Shown here: positions 8,745 to 30,488 of the stretch, piece by piece
Layout of the letters: each line of letters starts with the position of its first letter
How positions within the stretch are numbered: the stretch's first letter is position 1
Assembly: GCF_008016535.1 (NCBI RefSeq)
Contig: NZ_SAXY01000051.1
Coordinates: 1-33,210, forward strand
Origin: Brachyspira pilosicoli
Lineage (GTDB): Bacteria; Spirochaetota; Brachyspiria; Brachyspirales; Brachyspiraceae
Reading direction: 5' to 3'
Length of the DNA stretch: 33,210 bases
Position numbers and translations under genes: made by a program
Notes under the pieces: model-generated
Databases searched by the model: none
What the model saw: only the letters and a program-made list of their open reading frames with translations
What the model was told of the DNA's origin: nothing

Positions 8745-9638
8745 ATGGAAATTAGGGTATTAAAATATTTTTTAACAACCATAAGAGAGGGCAACATTAC
8801 TAAAGCAGCAAAATATCTTAATCTCACTCAGCCTAATTTATCTAGACAAATAAATATGCTTGAAAGAGATATAGGTCATAAACTTTTTGAAAGAAAACAT
8901 AATAATATAATTCTCACTCCTGAAGGTATTTTATTAAAAAAGAGAGCTGAAGAAATAATAAATATGGTAGATAAAACAAGAGCCGAGTTTAATTTTACTG
9001 ATAAGGTCATAGCGGGTGATATATTTATTGGTGCAGGGGAGACTTGGGCTATGAGTTTGGTTGCTTCTGTGATGAAAGATGTGCAGAAAGATTATCCGCA
9101 TATAAAATACAATATTTACAGCGGCAATTTTCAAGACATTACAGAAAAACTTGATAAGGGGTTACTTGATTTTGGATTATTAATTGACCCTGCTGATTTA
9201 TCTAAATATGATTATTTAAAAATGCCTGTAAAAGATACTTGGGGATTAGCTATGAGAAAAGATTCTCCTCTTTCAAATAAAAAAAATATAACAAAAAAGG
9301 ATTTATTAAATATTCCATTAATAATTTCGAGGCAGGTAATAGAAACAGAAATAGAGGACAATGATTTTTCAAGATGGTTTTCTGACACTTTTAACAATCT
9401 TAATATAACAGCAACCTATAACCTAATTTACAATGCATTAATTATGGTAGGTGAAGGTATGGGGTATGCTTTATGTTTAGATAAGTTAATAGATAATATG
9501 GAGCATCAAAATATTTGTTTTTTACCTTTAAAGCCGAAATTAGAATCTGGAATTAATATAGTTTGGAAGAAGAATCAGGAGTTTTCAATGGCATCAAAGA
9601 TATTTCTTCATGTACTTAAAAATAAATTTACTTCATAA
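8745..9638 (+). CDS. LysR-family transcriptional regulator
   Basis: This is a 297-residue cytoplasmic DNA-binding regulator. The N-terminal winged helix-turn-helix is clear: LKYFLTTIREGNITKAAKYL, then NLTQPNLSRQINMLERDIG and KLFERKHNNIILTPEG (residues 6-66). Residues about 90-295 form the periplasmic-binding-protein-like effector domain. The length is typical of the family. It is divergent from the MFS transporter, which is the most likely target. The effector is unknown. Confidence 0.93.
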   Translation: MEIRVLKYFLTTIREGNITKAAKYLNLTQPNLSRQINMLERDIGHKLFERKHNNIILTPEGILLKKRAEEIINMVDKTRAEFNFTDKVIAGDIFIGAGETWAMSLVASVMKDVQKDYPHIKYNIYSGNFQDITEKLDKGLLDFGLLIDPADLSKYDYLKMPVKDTWGLAMRKDSPLSNKKNITKKDLLNIPLIISRQVIETEIEDNDFSRWFSDTFNNLNITATYNLIYNALIMVGEGMGYALCLDKLIDNMEHQNICFLPLKPKLESGINIVWKKNQEFSMASKIFLHVLKNKFTS

Positions 9639-9895: not shown

Positions 9896-10990
9896 TTATT
9901 TCAAATTGTCTTTGAAGAATTGTGATAATTTTTCAAAAGGAATTTTCTCCATATTGTCATATAAATCAACATGGTCAGCATCTTCTACTATTACTAATTC
10001 TTTTGGCTCTAACGCTTCTTTATAAACATCTTCAGAGTAGTATCTTGAATGAGCATTTTCTCCAGCTACCAAAAGTATAGGAGTAGGAGAAACATCTTTA
10101 ATATTAGCCATTAAAGGAAAGTTCCAAAATGATATAGGCATTGTTGCTGTCCAAGAAGTAACAAAATTTATAGCTCTAGGATGATAAGCTCTTTTAGCAT
10201 AATAGTTGTAGAATGCAGCAAATACAGGGTCAGCATTTTCTGGAAGTTCTTTTGGTACAACCATTGCAGAAGCTTGTATATTATTATTAGCATCAAAAGT
10301 AGGTTCATGATTTCCTAAAGCATAAGTATTGTTTTCTGCATCTTTCCAACGCTGCTCGCTTAAATATTCTCTTATTATTCTTCTTTGCTCAGGTGTGTAA
10401 TAATCTTGATGACCTCTGCTCATATCTCTTGACATATCATACATTGAAAGAGTTGCTACAGCTTTTATTCTAGTATCAGTTCCAGCAGCAGTAATAGCCA
10501 TACCAGAAAGTCCACAAATACCTATTGCACCAATACGGTTTCTATCTACATAATCAAGCAAACCTAAATAATCTACAGCAGCACTATAATCTTCAGTAAA
10601 TATATCAGGTGAAGAAGTATTTCTTACATCGCCTCCGCTCTCACCTGTAAAAGACGGGTCAAATGCTAAAGCAATAAAACCATAAGCAGCCATCTCTTGA
10701 GCATATAATCCTGAAGCCTGTTCTTTAACTGCTCCAAATGGTCCAGATACAACTATCGCAGGATTTTTTTGATTGGTATAATTTTCTGGTAAATATAAAT
10801 CCCCTGCTATTTCTATGCCATAACGATTTTTAAATCTTACTTTTTCCATTTCTATATTTGTGTAAATTTTAAAAACTCTTGTATCCATTTCATCTCCTCC
10901 TTTAGATTGATTATTTTGGTTATTTTGTGATTGATTACAAGACATTAAAAAAGTTAATATTAAAGTTGCTGCTAATATTGTTTTTTTCAT
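9896..10990 (-). CDS. Alpha/beta-hydrolase lipoprotein (dienelactone hydrolase-like)
   Basis: Residues 1-18 form a lipoprotein signal (FLMSC, lipidated Cys18), followed by an Asn/Gln-rich linker. The rest is an alpha/beta-hydrolase fold: NPAIVVSGPFGAVKE (oxyanion region), the nucleophile elbow GAIGICGLSG (154-163), VAGENAHS (acid region) and VEDADHVDLYD (catalytic His). The nucleophile could be Cys159, as in dienelactone-hydrolase-like proteins, or Ser162 in GLSGM. The substrate is unknown. It lies 23 bases after the sugar O-acetyltransferase on the same strand, so the two are probably co-transcribed. An internal ATG at 10888 (Met35) has its own excellent Shine-Dalgarno and would give a non-lipidated cytoplasmic form. 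Confidence 0.8.
   Translation of the reverse strand: MKKTILAATLILTFLMSCNQSQNNQNNQSKGGDEMDTRVFKIYTNIEMEKVRFKNRYGIEIAGDLYLPENYTNQKNPAIVVSGPFGAVKEQASGLYAQEMAAYGFIALAFDPSFTGESGGDVRNTSSPDIFTEDYSAAVDYLGLLDYVDRNRIGAIGICGLSGMAITAAGTDTRIKAVATLSMYDMSRDMSRGHQDYYTPEQRRIIREYLSEQRWKDAENNTYALGNHEPTFDANNNIQASAMVVPKELPENADPVFAAFYNYYAKRAYHPRAINFVTSWTATMPISFWNFPLMANIKDVSPTPILLVAGENAHSRYYSEDVYKEALEPKELVIVEDADHVDLYDNMEKIPFEKLSQFFKDNLK
10886..10903 (-). promoter_or_regulatory. Internal Shine-Dalgarno and second start in the hydrolase gene
   Basis: On the minus strand AAAGGAGG (10896-10903) lies seven bases before the ATG at 10886-10888 (Met35). The first start at 10990 also has a good site (AAGGAG). Both could be used. 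Confidence 0.55.
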
Positions 10991-11013
10991 TTAACGCTCC
11001 TTAATTTTATTTA

Positions 11014-11580
11014 TTATAAATTTTTTATAATTTTAGCAGGCACTCCTCTAACTATCACATTAGAAGGCACATCTTTATTAACCAAAGCACCAGCAGCTAT
11101 TATTGAGTTATCTCCTATAGTTATGCCTCCGAGTATATTAGCCCCAGAGCCTATCCAAACATTATTACCTATAACTACTTTTGACGGATATGTTGTGCTT
11201 CTATGTTCTAAATCAAAACCATGATTTAAAGTTGATATAGTAACATTCATTCCAAGAAATACATTGTCTCCTATAGTTATTCCCCCTCTGTCTTGAAATG
11301 AGCAGCCGCAGTTAAAAAACACATTCTTTCCAATTTTTATGTTTCTTCCAAAGTCGCTGTAAAATGGCGGGAAGCATGTAAAGCTTTCATCTATATTTTC
11401 TCCTGTTAGCTTTTCAAATAATTTTCTTACCTCTTCTGGAGTGTGATAACTATTATTAATTTCCATACATGTTTTTATTGCATTTTGTGCACATTCATGC
11501 AAAAATGGTGAAAGCTCTTTATCAATGCTTGATACAGGGTTGCCGTCTTTGCAGTATTTTATAAACTCTTCAATATTCAT
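11014..11580 (-). CDS. Sugar O-acetyltransferase (maltose acetyltransferase/NodL family)
   Basis: This enzyme transfers acetyl from acetyl-CoA to a sugar hydroxyl. The N-terminal helical part (about 1-65) is the Mac domain. From about residue 75 the left-handed beta-helix repeats appear (IGKNVFFNCGCSFQDRG, ITIGDNVFLGMNVTISTLNH, VVIGNNVWIGSGANILGG, ITIGDNSIIAAGALVNKDVP). The catalytic His lies in STLNHGFD, and the C-terminus is the standard GVPAKIIKNL. The 188 residues match the family. The start has AAAGGAAG upstream. A hybrid promoter formed by the adjacent IS end probably drives this gene and the hydrolase after it. Confidence 0.92.
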   Translation of the reverse strand: MNIEEFIKYCKDGNPVSSIDKELSPFLHECAQNAIKTCMEINNSYHTPEEVRKLFEKLTGENIDESFTCFPPFYSDFGRNIKIGKNVFFNCGCSFQDRGGITIGDNVFLGMNVTISTLNHGFDLEHRSTTYPSKVVIGNNVWIGSGANILGGITIGDNSIIAAGALVNKDVPSNVIVRGVPAKIIKNL

Positions 11581-13706: not shown

Positions 13707-14642
13707 ATGAAAAAAGATTATAGCACAGAATTTAAATTATTTATAGTGGATGAAGCATTAGAAACTAAAAATATTAAAAGATTTTTAAAGATAGAAGAAA
13801 TACCCAAATCTACTTTTTATGCTTGGCTTAAAAAATATAAAGACACTGGAACTGTCGCCAATTTTAGCACTAGACCAAAAACTTCCCCAAATATCTTTAA
13901 TAACCAAAAAGCTATTAATTTAATTATTAAACTCTATACTAAAGAATATCGAGGTAAGCATTATATTAAAGCATATTTAAATCGTGAAGGCATTAAGATA
14001 GGTGTTACAGCTATAGAGAATGTACTAAAAAGAAATAATCTTTGGAGATATAAAACAAAAAAGAAAAAGAAGCGATATGATAAACGAAAATTTGTCTCTA
14101 AAATACAAAAAGAAGGCAAAATAGTTCAAATAGACACTAAATATATCAAATTAGGCAGAAAAACAGTCTATCAGTTCACTGCTGTCGATTTAGCTACTCG
14201 CTATAGTTGGAGGCAAATCTATGAGGATAAAACACCTTATAGTGCTTTATCTTTCTTAAAATATGTCTTAAAAACTTCACCTTTTAAGATACAATCTATA
14301 CAGACCGATAATGGTATAGAATATACATACCGCTGTATCAATACCTCTAAAATAAATATTTTTGATGAATACTGCTTAAAAAATAAATTAGAGAGGAGAT
14401 ATATTCCTATAGCAACACCAAGATATAACGGCGTAGTAGAAAGAGTACACGGCATAGACGAAAGAGAATTTTATTCACGATTAAATAAAAATATCACAGT
14501 AGAATTATTGAGAGAAAAATTAAAAGAATATACACATTTTTATAACAATCAAAGATTGATTTCTTCGTTATTGTATATTACAATCAAAGAAAGAATCAAA
14601 AATATTATAGCAAGTAAAAGTACAATATCTATGGCTCCATGA
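13707..14642 (+). CDS. IS481-like DDE transposase, copy B
   Basis: A 311-residue transposase. Residues about 1-60 are a helix-turn-helix (FLKIEEIPKSTFYAWLKKYK), then a second HTH region (RGKHYIKAYLNREGI). The integrase-core domain holds the DDE acidic triad: Asp in QIDTKY, Asp in QTDNG and Glu in VVERVH. The last codons, ending MAP, run into the terminal inverted repeat (ATGACA). It differs from copies C and D at a few residues (for example SLLYITI instead of SLGYITI). No frameshift or second frame is used, unlike IS3 elements. It appears active in principle. Confidence 0.93.
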   Translation: MKKDYSTEFKLFIVDEALETKNIKRFLKIEEIPKSTFYAWLKKYKDTGTVANFSTRPKTSPNIFNNQKAINLIIKLYTKEYRGKHYIKAYLNREGIKIGVTAIENVLKRNNLWRYKTKKKKKRYDKRKFVSKIQKEGKIVQIDTKYIKLGRKTVYQFTAVDLATRYSWRQIYEDKTPYSALSFLKYVLKTSPFKIQSIQTDNGIEYTYRCINTSKINIFDEYCLKNKLERRYIPIATPRYNGVVERVHGIDEREFYSRLNKNITVELLREKLKEYTHFYNNQRLISSLLYITIKERIKNIIASKSTISMAP

Positions 14643-25958: not shown

Positions 25959-26315
25959 TTATTTGGTTAAATCTTGTACTATTTTATTAATATTTGAATT
26001 ATTATTAATATATTTTACATTTAATTTTTTTGCTTCTTCTTTCAAATTTTTATCTATATTTTCTGATATAAAGAATATTTTAAAATTTAATTCATTATTT
26101 ACTTTTTTTAGTTCAGTGATAAACTCTATAACATTAATCCATACTAAATTAGGATTAAATATTAAAGTATCTATATTATATTTATATATTTTGCTCATAA
26201 GTTCGTATAAATTTTCGGCAGTTAATACTTTTATTGAAGAACTTTCAAGTGAAGCTTTGATTTTATTTAGGCTAATACCATCATCATCAACTAGTATAAC
26301 AGTATTTTCTTTCAT
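25959..26315 (-). CDS. Stand-alone pseudo-receiver (degenerate CheY-like) protein
   Basis: I start at ATG 26315 (MKENTVILVDDDG), with TTGGAT upstream. The 118 residues have the receiver fold: the acidic pair in VILVDDDG, then LIFNPNL where the phosphoacceptor aspartate should be (Asn instead), IFFISEN (Ser at the Thr/Ser position) and VKYINNN, where the conserved Lys-Pro is gone. It therefore cannot be phosphorylated in the normal way. It converges with the kinase gene with only 5 bases between them. It may act as a binding partner or may be decaying. Confidence 0.8.
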   Translation of the reverse strand: MKENTVILVDDDGISLNKIKASLESSSIKVLTAENLYELMSKIYKYNIDTLIFNPNLVWINVIEFITELKKVNNELNFKIFFISENIDKNLKEEAKKLNVKYINNNSNINKIVQDLTK

Positions 26316-26348
26316 AAATAATCCAAAGAAATTAATAATTATTATATT

Positions 26349-26432
26349 TACCGAGAGAGGGAATCGAACCCTCACTGAGTCGCCCCAATCAGATTTTGAG
26401 TCTGACGTGTCTACCAATTTCACCATCTCGGC
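26349..26432 (-). tRNA. tRNA-Leu (anticodon CAA)
   Basis: On the minus strand the acceptor GCCGAGA pairs with TCTCGGT. The anticodon stem TCAGA/TCTGA holds the loop CTCAAAA with CAA (26396-26398 on the plus strand as TTG). A long variable arm and GGTTCGATTCC follow. The discriminator base is A, as expected for leucine. Confidence 0.95.
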
Positions 26433-26495: not shown

Positions 26496-27531
26496 TGTCA
26501 TGGAGCCATAGATATTGTACTTTTACTTGCTATAATATTTTTGATTCTTTCTTTGATTGTAATATAACCTAACGAAGAAATCAATCTTTGATTGTTATAA
26601 AAATGTGTATATTCTTTTAATTTTTCTCTCAATAATTCTACTGTGATATTTTTATTTAATCGTGAATAAAATTCTCTTTCGTCTATGCCGTGTACTCTTT
26701 CTACTACGCCATTGTATCTTGGTGTTGCTACTGGAATATATCTTCTCTCTAATTTATTTTTTAAGCAGTATTCATCAAAAATATTGATTTTAGGAGTATT
26801 AATACAGCGATAAGTATATTCTATACCATTGTCTGTTTGTATAGCTTGTATCTTAAAAGGCGAAGTTTTTAAGACATATTTTAAGAAAGATAAAGCACTA
26901 GAAGGTGTTTTATCTTCATAGATTTCTCTCCAACTATAACGAGTAGCTAAATCTACAGCAGTGAATTGATAAACTGTTTTTCTGCCTAATTTGATATATT
27001 TAGTGTCTATTTGAACTATTTTGCCTTCTTTTTCTATCTTAGAGACAAATTTTCGTTTATCATATCGCTTCTTTTTCTTTTTTATTTTGTATCTCCAAAG
27101 ATTATTTCTTTTTAGTACATTCTCTATAGCTGTAACACCTATATTAATGCCTTCACGATTTAAATATGCTTTAATATAATGCTTACCTCGATATTCTTTA
27201 GTATAGAGTTCAATAATTAAATTAATAGCTTTTTGATTATTAAAGATATTTGGAGAAGTTTTTGGCTTAGTGCTAAAATTAGCGACAGTTCCAGTGTCTT
27301 TATATTTCTTAAGCCAAGTATAAAAAGTGGATTTATTTATTCTTTCCATCTTTAAAAATCTTTTAATATTTTTAGTTTTTAATGCTTCATCCACTATAAA
27401 TAATTTAAATTCTGTGCTATAATCTTTTTTCATAGTAGTATCCTTTTATTTGTTTTCTATATCAAAATATTATAACAAGGATACTGCTTTTTTTATACTA
27501 AAAAATGTCCAATATCTCACACTCCTAAACA
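26496..27531 (-). mobile_element. IS481-like insertion sequence, copy C
   Basis: A 1036-bp element with ends TGTCATGGAGCC and (complement of the right end) TGTTTAGGAGTG. The transposase is intact. It is inserted between tRNA-Leu and tsaC. Confidence 0.95.
26498..27433 (-). CDS. IS481-like DDE transposase, copy C
   Basis: 311 residues with the HTH and DDE integrase core (QIDTKY, QTDNG, VVERVH). It differs from copies B and D mainly in the first HTH (MERINKSTFYTW in place of IEEIPKSTFYAW). The gene ends inside the left terminal repeat. As in the other copies, a hairpin that can cover the ribosome-binding site precedes the start. Confidence 0.93.
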   Translation of the reverse strand: MKKDYSTEFKLFIVDEALKTKNIKRFLKMERINKSTFYTWLKKYKDTGTVANFSTKPKTSPNIFNNQKAINLIIELYTKEYRGKHYIKAYLNREGINIGVTAIENVLKRNNLWRYKIKKKKKRYDKRKFVSKIEKEGKIVQIDTKYIKLGRKTVYQFTAVDLATRYSWREIYEDKTPSSALSFLKYVLKTSPFKIQAIQTDNGIEYTYRCINTPKINIFDEYCLKNKLERRYIPVATPRYNGVVERVHGIDEREFYSRLNKNITVELLREKLKEYTHFYNNQRLISSLGYITIKERIKNIIASKSTISMAP

Positions 27532-29453: not shown

Positions 29454-30488
29454 TGTCATGGAGCCATAGATATTGTACTTTTACTTGCTATAATATTTTT
29501 GATTCTTTCTTTGATTGTAATATAACCTAACGAAGAAATCAATCTTTGATTGTTATAAAAATGTGTATATTCTTTTAATTTTTCTCTCAATAATTCTACT
29601 GTGATATTTTTATTTAATCGTGAATAAAATTCTCTTTCGTCTATGCCGTGTACTCTTTCTACTACGCCGTTATATCTTGGTGTTGCTACAGGAATATATC
29701 TTCTCTCTAATTTATTTTTCAAGCAGTATTCATCAAAAATATTGATTTTAGAGGTATTGATACAACGGTATGTATATTCCATACCATTATCGGTCTGTAT
29801 AGCCTGTATCCTAAAAGGTGAAGTTTTTAAGACATATTTTAAGAAAGATAAAGCACTATAAGGTGTTTTATCTTCATAGATTTGCCTCCAACTATAACGA
29901 GTAGCTAAATCTACAGCAGTGAATTGATAAACAGTTTTTCTGCCTAATTTGATATATTTAGTGTCTATTTGAACTATTTTGCCTTCTTTTTGTATTTTAG
30001 AGACAAATTTACGCTTATCATATCGCTTCTTTTTCTTTTTTATTTTGTATCTCCAAAGATTATTTCTTTTTAGTACATTCTCTATAGCTGTAACCCCTAT
30101 CTTAATTCCTTTACGATTTAAATATGCTTTAATATAATGCTTACCTCGATATTCTTTAGTATAGAGTTCAATAATTAAATTAATAGCTTCTTGATTATTA
30201 AAGATATTTGGAGAAGTTTTCGGTCTAGTGCTAAAATTAGCGACAGTTTCAGTGTCTTTATATTTTTTAAGCCAAGCATAAAAAGTAGATTTGGGTATTT
30301 CTTCTATCTTTAGAAATCTTTTAATATTTTTAGTTTTTAATGCTTCATCCACTATAAATAATTTAAATTCTGTGCTATAATCTTTTTTCATAGTAGTATC
30401 CTTTATTTATTTTCTATATCAAAATATTATAACAAGGATACTGCTTTTTTTATACTAAAAAATGTCCAATATCTCACACTCCTAAACA
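29454..30488 (-). mobile_element. IS481-like insertion sequence, copy D
   Basis: A 1035-bp element with the same ends as copy C. It is inserted 126 bases upstream of the receiver/GGDEF start codon and 90 bases before the OmpA-like gene on the other side, in a divergent promoter region. Confidence 0.95.
29456..30391 (-). CDS. IS481-like DDE transposase, copy D
   Basis: 311 residues, intact, closest to copy B in the first helix-turn-helix (FLKIEEIPKSTFYAWLKKYK) and to copy C near the C-terminus (SLGYITIKER). This mosaic pattern suggests exchange between copies. The DDE motifs are as in the other copies. Confidence 0.93.
   Translation of the reverse strand: MKKDYSTEFKLFIVDEALKTKNIKRFLKIEEIPKSTFYAWLKKYKDTETVANFSTRPKTSPNIFNNQEAINLIIELYTKEYRGKHYIKAYLNRKGIKIGVTAIENVLKRNNLWRYKIKKKKKRYDKRKFVSKIQKEGKIVQIDTKYIKLGRKTVYQFTAVDLATRYSWRQIYEDKTPYSALSFLKYVLKTSPFRIQAIQTDNGMEYTYRCINTSKINIFDEYCLKNKLERRYIPVATPRYNGVVERVHGIDEREFYSRLNKNITVELLREKLKEYTHFYNNQRLISSLGYITIKERIKNIIASKSTISMAP

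Follow-up and report, generated by a model that had tools for sequence, protein, structure and literature searches.

A putative translated ribosome-binding site inside a Brachyspira lipoprotein gene that may supply both an anchored and a cytosolic alpha/beta hydrolase

Pairs of in-frame starts whose products are assigned to different locations have been described in enteric bacteria. For Salmonella, Ribo-RET was accompanied by predictions of different locations for the long and short forms of PagC, OmpX and the lipoprotein YfhG (mBio 2024, PMC11005335), and in E. coli a pair of SpeA proteoforms was linked to different compartments (NAR 2026, PMC13245402). Going by the accessible portions of these two reports, the pairs resemble the hydrolase gene analyzed here in having two in-frame starts, with an export or envelope feature that belongs, or is predicted to belong, to the longer form only. 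They differ in being single cases with no stated origin and with measured expression, whereas the hydrolase is known here from sequence, and in that the inner start of the hydrolase would be the ancestral start of a transferred gene, its ribosome-binding site would have become the linker, and the design recurs in the genus. Shine-Dalgarno (SD)-like elements have also been tied to pauses, which are enriched at codons 16–36 of E. coli membrane proteins (eLife 2014, PMC4359368). In the accessible part of that study, programmed pauses share with the hydrolase gene an SD-like element early in the gene of an exported or membrane protein, but the pause model, unlike the hydrolase, involves no start codon. 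A search of the literature, with subscription journals mostly outside its reach, returned no report of a ribosome-binding site turned linker or of dual starts in Brachyspira, and the accessible part of a paper on the Brachyspira exposed proteome (PMC4955376) does not mention the hydrolase. Dual-start genes are already known; the route from ribosome-binding site to linker, kept and repeated across enzyme families, appears to be new.

The window is the whole stretch of Brachyspira pilosicoli DNA that was analyzed, 33,210 nucleotides of contig NZ_SAXY01000051.1 (assembly GCF_008016535.1). By sequence reading, an open reading frame (ORF) of 364 codons on the minus strand (9896–10990) encodes MKKTILAATLILTFLMSC, then NQSQNNQNNQSKGGDE, then MDTRVF and onward; the residues directly after SKGGDE are MDTRVFKIYTNIEM. 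A search of 26 Brachyspira genomes found a homologue of some kind in 23 and orthologues, at 81% identity or above, in 21; identities reach 94% in Brachyspira records, and the orthologue counts below refer to these 21. The features of the locus, in the order of transcription of the hydrolase gene and ending with the gene beyond it, are as follows.

11014–11580, minus strand: hexapeptide sugar O-acetyltransferase-like gene, 23 nt upstream of the hydrolase and clustered with it in Bacillota relatives too
10997–11002, minus strand: outer Shine-Dalgarno AAGGAG of the lipoprotein start, read from sequence (duplex energy −7.9)
10988–10990, minus strand: outer start codon ATG; an in-frame outer ATG precedes the lipobox in 21/21 orthologues
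10937–10990, minus strand: predicted lipoprotein signal peptide with lipobox LMSC, Cys18 at 10937–10939; lipobox in 21/21 orthologues
10889–10936, minus strand: Asn/Gln-rich linker, whose end SKGGDE is the putative translated ancestral ribosome-binding site and aligns with the non-coding ribosome-binding site of cytoplasmic relatives
10896–10903, minus strand: inner Shine-Dalgarno AAAGGAGG; AAGGAG in 21/21 orthologues, with zero changes on the tree
10886–10888, minus strand: inner start codon ATG, Met35 (codon 35); ATG in 21/21 orthologues, aligned with Met1 of the closest outside relative (L045)
9896–10888, minus strand: alpha/beta-hydrolase domain of the PA2218/YcjY type, full length from Met35 (phmmer matches to 2HDW and 5XB6; predicted structure)
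8745–9638, plus strand: adjoining LysR-type regulator; a related LysR gene flanks Bacillota hydrolase genes

The acetyltransferase-like gene and the hydrolase are probably in the same operon. Judged by pattern, MKKTILAATLILTFLMSC contains an n-region, a hydrophobic stretch and a lipobox ending in Cys, and the Cys of the anchored form is predicted to be lipidated. Elsewhere in the window, three near-identical 311-residue transposase-like ORFs (13707–14642, plus strand; 26498–27433 and 29456–30391, both minus strand; integrase type by eye) represent a recent insertion-sequence expansion. The N-terminus (MVKLVDTSDSKSDWGDSVRVRFP) of a response-regulator-like ORF (25959–26426, minus strand) is translated tRNA: ARAGORN placed a tRNA-Leu at 26349–26432, so the true start of this ORF lies further downstream.

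The gene product is assigned as an alpha/beta hydrolase on the basis of sequence matches and a predicted structure. The closest solved structures found with phmmer were PA2218 of Pseudomonas (2HDW, E = 7e-107, residues 21–363) and YcjY (5XB6, E = 1e-40); both are alpha/beta hydrolases that match over the whole domain, and their PDB molecule names state no function. Five curated alpha/beta-hydrolase families of Pfam matched, all under the gathering cut-off, and the best NCBIfam match, the acyl-homoserine lactonase UilS (NF047920), scored 54.3 bits against a curated cut-off of 400. In the predicted structure (mean pLDDT 85) the order of strands and helices is that of the alpha/beta hydrolase fold, and no fold search was needed because the sequence match to 2HDW was clear. 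Residues 1–33 are unordered (pLDDT below 50), confidence is good beyond about residue 40, the first strand is at residue 47 and the folded domain begins at about residues 35–40, which places the inner start at the domain edge. Cys159 (in GICG) and His340, the candidate nucleophile and base, respectively, are invariant in a 30-row alignment.

The two starts were compared by duplex energies computed with an assumed anti-SD tail (ACCUCCUUU). The inner AAAGGAGG, separated by 7 nt from the ATG at codon 35, gave −11.7 kcal/mol, compared with −7.9 kcal/mol for the outer site. By predicted folding, the inner site is unstructured (MFE −3.0, z +0.9) and the outer site is folded (MFE −7.9, z −2.2). A sequence-only reading of this DNA had described a lipoprotein made from the first start and a second ATG at Met35, after the Asn/Gln linker and with AAAGGAGG seven bases upstream; the signal peptide with its LMSC lipobox and the coordinates of the inner site bore this out. 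The same reading had called the inner site as good as the first. It is a good site, but the two are not equal, the inner one being the stronger. The gene carries a second in-frame start codon with a good Shine-Dalgarno, as dual-start genes do. The chance level was taken from 40 stretches of 20 kb from a related complete genome (G011; about 31% of that genome, 669 ORF calls). Within this sample, −11.7 was reached by 0/650 first ATGs and by 3/3656 in-frame ATGs beyond codon 100, AAGGAG occurred 4–9 nt upstream of 2/3656 of the latter, and among 23 lipoproteins MsrA alone had an inner SD-ATG of similar strength. In the window's own genome, AAAGGAGG followed by seven nucleotides and ATG occurs three times, the hydrolase site included. 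A chance coincidence of inner SD and ATG is ruled out by this background (2/3656) together with conservation in the orthologues.

A comparison of orthologue start regions had been proposed as a check, with loss of the internal site as the outcome that would count against it; the site is instead kept throughout, hexamer and ATG unchanged. A lipobox is present in all 21 orthologues, as is an AAGGAG ahead of the inner ATG. The AAGGAG-to-ATG spacer is 8 in 19/21, and in 19/21 the strength of the inner site equals or exceeds that of the outer one. The outer start is preceded by AGGAG in 20/21; in one orthologue (G002), the in-frame outer ATG is not the ATG that follows the good SD. A mis-annotated upstream start was considered and rejected on the signal peptide and lipobox in 21/21 and the AGGAG in 20/21. 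The linker differs in length and sequence among orthologues, and the residues encoded at the inner SD read SKGGDE, NKGENN, TKGDKN, SQKGDN or SQGGDN, while the bases of AAGGAG and ATG are constant. On a tree built from the body sequence, the nine SD and ATG sites had 0 changes and the 23 flanking linker sites had 48 (average 2.1 per site). With unchanged sites placed at random, the count anchored on the hexamer and rate differences among codon positions ignored, the chance that all nine fall among the 12 unchanged of 32 sites is 8e-6; this count and a Poisson test both treat the sites as exchangeable. The inner Gly codon is GGA in 21/21, and 0/18 conserved Gly columns of the body are free of synonymous change; with all four-fold codons as the yardstick, 13/75 body columns are also unchanged, so the codon test alone is weak. 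Retention of the inner site partly mirrors shared descent, the orthologues being related, and the conservation of SD and ATG looks like selection at the sequence level.

Relatives of the gene were sought by a genome scan, from which 80 of 171 confirmed loci were kept. Among these 80, the nearest relatives outside Brachyspira come from gut Bacillota, Lachnospiraceae among them, with identities of up to 81%, and most of the closest lack a signal peptide. In the closest of all (L045), Met1 aligns exactly with Met35, and its ribosome-binding site, gtaaaggag at a spacer of 8, occupies the same position as the inner SD. This protein and three others (L061, L085 and L064) all begin at the position that matches Met35, and taaaggag or gaggag precedes their ATG; the AAGGAG-to-ATG spacer is also 8 in L061. 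In many other Bacillota relatives the start lies three codons before this position (MENKDTR), and a GGAG precedes it at a spacer of 8 or 9. Genes next to the Bacillota hydrolases, named by eye from ORF translations, include a LysR gene, aldo/keto reductases and an acetyltransferase of the same type. The cytoplasmic Lachnospiraceae orthologues share with the window gene up to 81% identity, the LysR/acetyltransferase neighbourhood and the position of the ribosome-binding site; they differ in having no signal peptide and in gene order, the hydrolase lying before the acetyltransferase rather than after it as in the window.

For the tree, 88 proteins parsed from the loci (11 loci were unparsed) and four paralogues were reduced to 68 rows by removal of near-copies and short rows. 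The eight Brachyspira rows group as one clade (100/99), and this clade is nested in a set of 31 rows (100/98), the rest of which consists of 21 cytoplasmic Bacillota proteins and two with an independent secretion signal; the inner forks of the set are unsettled. Two clostridial homologues (L065 and L067) gained an export signal independently and carry a long extra N-terminal domain before the hydrolase. Among 198 spirochaete genomes searched (26 Brachyspira and 172 others), 9 of the 172 had a homologue at E ≤ 1e-60, with 47–52% identity. An ancestral lipoprotein with later loss of the signal in Bacillota is less probable: the Brachyspira clade sits within a group of cytoplasmic proteins and more cytoplasmic rows branch outside it, though the two outermost cytoplasmic rows of the set are long branches. 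In the accessible part of the B. hyodysenteriae genome report, 15% of coding sequences matched Clostridium best, and small clusters were judged likely to have been transferred horizontally (PMC2650404). A Bacillota gene that carried its ribosome-binding site and later received a signal is the best account, because ribosome-binding sites and starts align, the tree is nested and identities to other spirochaetes are lower. We therefore consider it very probable that an older cytoplasmic gene acquired the signal peptide, which the sequence-only reading had put forward as its second option.

Lipoprotein genes of the same design were sought across the 26 genomes. A carboxymuconolactone-decarboxylase (CMD, PF02627) lipoprotein was found at 21 loci in 20/26 genomes (L213–L233), and at all 21 the edge of the domain is marked by GGAG and an ATG in frame, the ATG lying 25–28 codons before a conserved IFNNF motif. 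The residue before GGAG varies (K, S or N) and GGAG is constant; GGAG and ATG showed no change in the 18 of 21 loci tested (chance by the unchanged-site count, with sites taken as exchangeable, 0.0075). In the codon test, for which 15/21 loci were parsed, the inner GGA was constant and 0/12 conserved Gly columns of the body were free of synonymous change. CMD is thus a second example of this design, independent of the hydrolase. A second hydrolase, 35% identical to the first, has AAAAGGAG and ATG in 4/4 loci and a lipoprotein signal in three; in the G003 copy the signal is out of frame and the inner start is kept. MsrA (PF01625) was found in 26/26 genomes (L164–L189; also L135:15971–16459, plus strand) and is a lipoprotein in most. 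In 5/26 genomes it has a very strong internal ribosome-binding site and ATG just before the enzyme domain. The MsrA inner site is strong (−11.1) in these five and weak (−3.9 to −5.6) or absent in the rest, so its loss is tolerable without obvious harm; because such sites can decay, their complete conservation in the hydrolase and CMD carries information.

Pattern searches over the 26 genomes for a lipobox (TCTTGY or TCATGY), SD and ATG gave 157 rows, 36 of them in frame and stop-free: 20 orthologues, three second-hydrolase genes, one MsrA and 12 others that were set aside on their translated linkers alone. These patterns miss AGC-Cys lipoboxes, such as that of the G018 orthologue. At 13/14 loci of clostridial aldo/keto-reductase (AKR) lipoproteins (L045–L084 clusters), an ATG or GTG close to the edge of the domain follows an SD-like element, a count made without a genome background that we treat as a lead only. 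The AKR copy of Brachyspira G003 (L161:3082–4041, minus strand) has a weaker SD-like element.

We favor a reading in which both starts are used, to which, together with the Bacillota origin and the added signal, a probability of roughly 0.68 is given. A cytoplasmic alpha/beta-hydrolase gene of gut Bacillota would have entered the Brachyspira lineage together with its ribosome-binding site. A lipoprotein signal peptide followed by a short Asn/Gln linker would then have been joined to it in frame on the upstream side, and the old site (AAAGGAG, 8 nt, ATG) would now be translated as the linker SKGGDE-M. Initiation at the outer start would give a Sec-exported, lipid-anchored enzyme, and initiation at the inner start would give the original soluble cytoplasmic enzyme. 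Anchored and cytosolic forms are favored because the inner ribosome-binding site is retained and independent examples exist in the genus; from these patterns we infer initiation at the inner site in vivo and activity of both forms. Translation from the outer start may interfere with initiation at the inner one. A dual product and a later-added signal, which had been offered as alternatives, are compatible; the sequence evidence supports the later-added signal strongly and the dual product indirectly.

Had the signal been added and the old ribosome-binding site left as an inert relic, essentially the lipoprotein alone would be made. The evidence on origin would then be the same, the genus has diverged modestly (tree length 1.25 for the 21 hydrolase genes), and the MsrA inner sites, strong in 5/26 genomes and weak or missing elsewhere, look as relics would. 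The SD and ATG of the hydrolase, however, are constant in 21/21 despite changes in linker sequence and length, CMD behaves likewise, and a strong, unstructured SD-ATG is expected to initiate unless blocked; we consider a pure relic somewhat unlikely. The opposite imbalance, with a minor lipoprotein product and an enzyme that is chiefly cytoplasmic as in Bacillota, would fit an inner SD that exceeds the outer one in strength and has less structure, and a G002 outer start that is weak or out of frame, but is very unlikely given the good outer SD (AGGAG) in 20/21 and the signal peptide and lipobox in 21/21. The element could also act as an elongation pause that aids signal-peptide targeting, with no start at all. 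Its position at codons 30–32 falls within the pause-enriched range of codons 16–36, where SD-like elements have been tied to pauses (PMC4359368). A pause would leave unexplained both the ATG at start-like spacing in 21/21 and the coincidence with the start of the cytoplasmic relatives, a comparably strong inner SD-ATG was present in only 1/23 lipoproteins of the G011 sample (MsrA), and the accessible part of the pause study found periplasmic proteins to be depleted in pauses; we regard this explanation as highly improbable.

The outer start runs into an A-tract of 7–8 bases (ATGAAAAAAA). In the G002 hydrolase (L017), the G009 CMD (L220) and the G009 MsrA (L172), the ATG that leads into the A-tract does not share the frame of the remaining signal peptide. 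The first two keep an intact, strong inner start; in the G009 MsrA the inner site is weak (−3.9). These cases may be draft-assembly or homopolymer errors. A broader architecture can be imagined, in which Brachyspira cytoplasmic enzymes (two alpha/beta hydrolases, CMD, MsrA and AKR, the last perhaps also in Lachnospiraceae) would be dual-located by a lipoprotein signal placed before a working ribosome-binding site, and slippage in the A-tract would silence the anchored form and leave the cytosolic form in production, giving a phase-variable location; as a whole this is speculative and distinctly unlikely.

Under the favored reading that both starts are used, a signal added upstream, with the old ribosome-binding site left as linker, would be a route to an exported enzyme without losing the cytosolic one. 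Annotation with the longest form alone, or with the Met35 form alone, would then miss one product. A lipobox, a short polar linker, an SD and an ATG at the domain edge would together serve as a search recipe for dual-located enzymes, and since the pattern repeats in several enzyme families of the genus, internal starts that are used can be directly tested against those that are relics.
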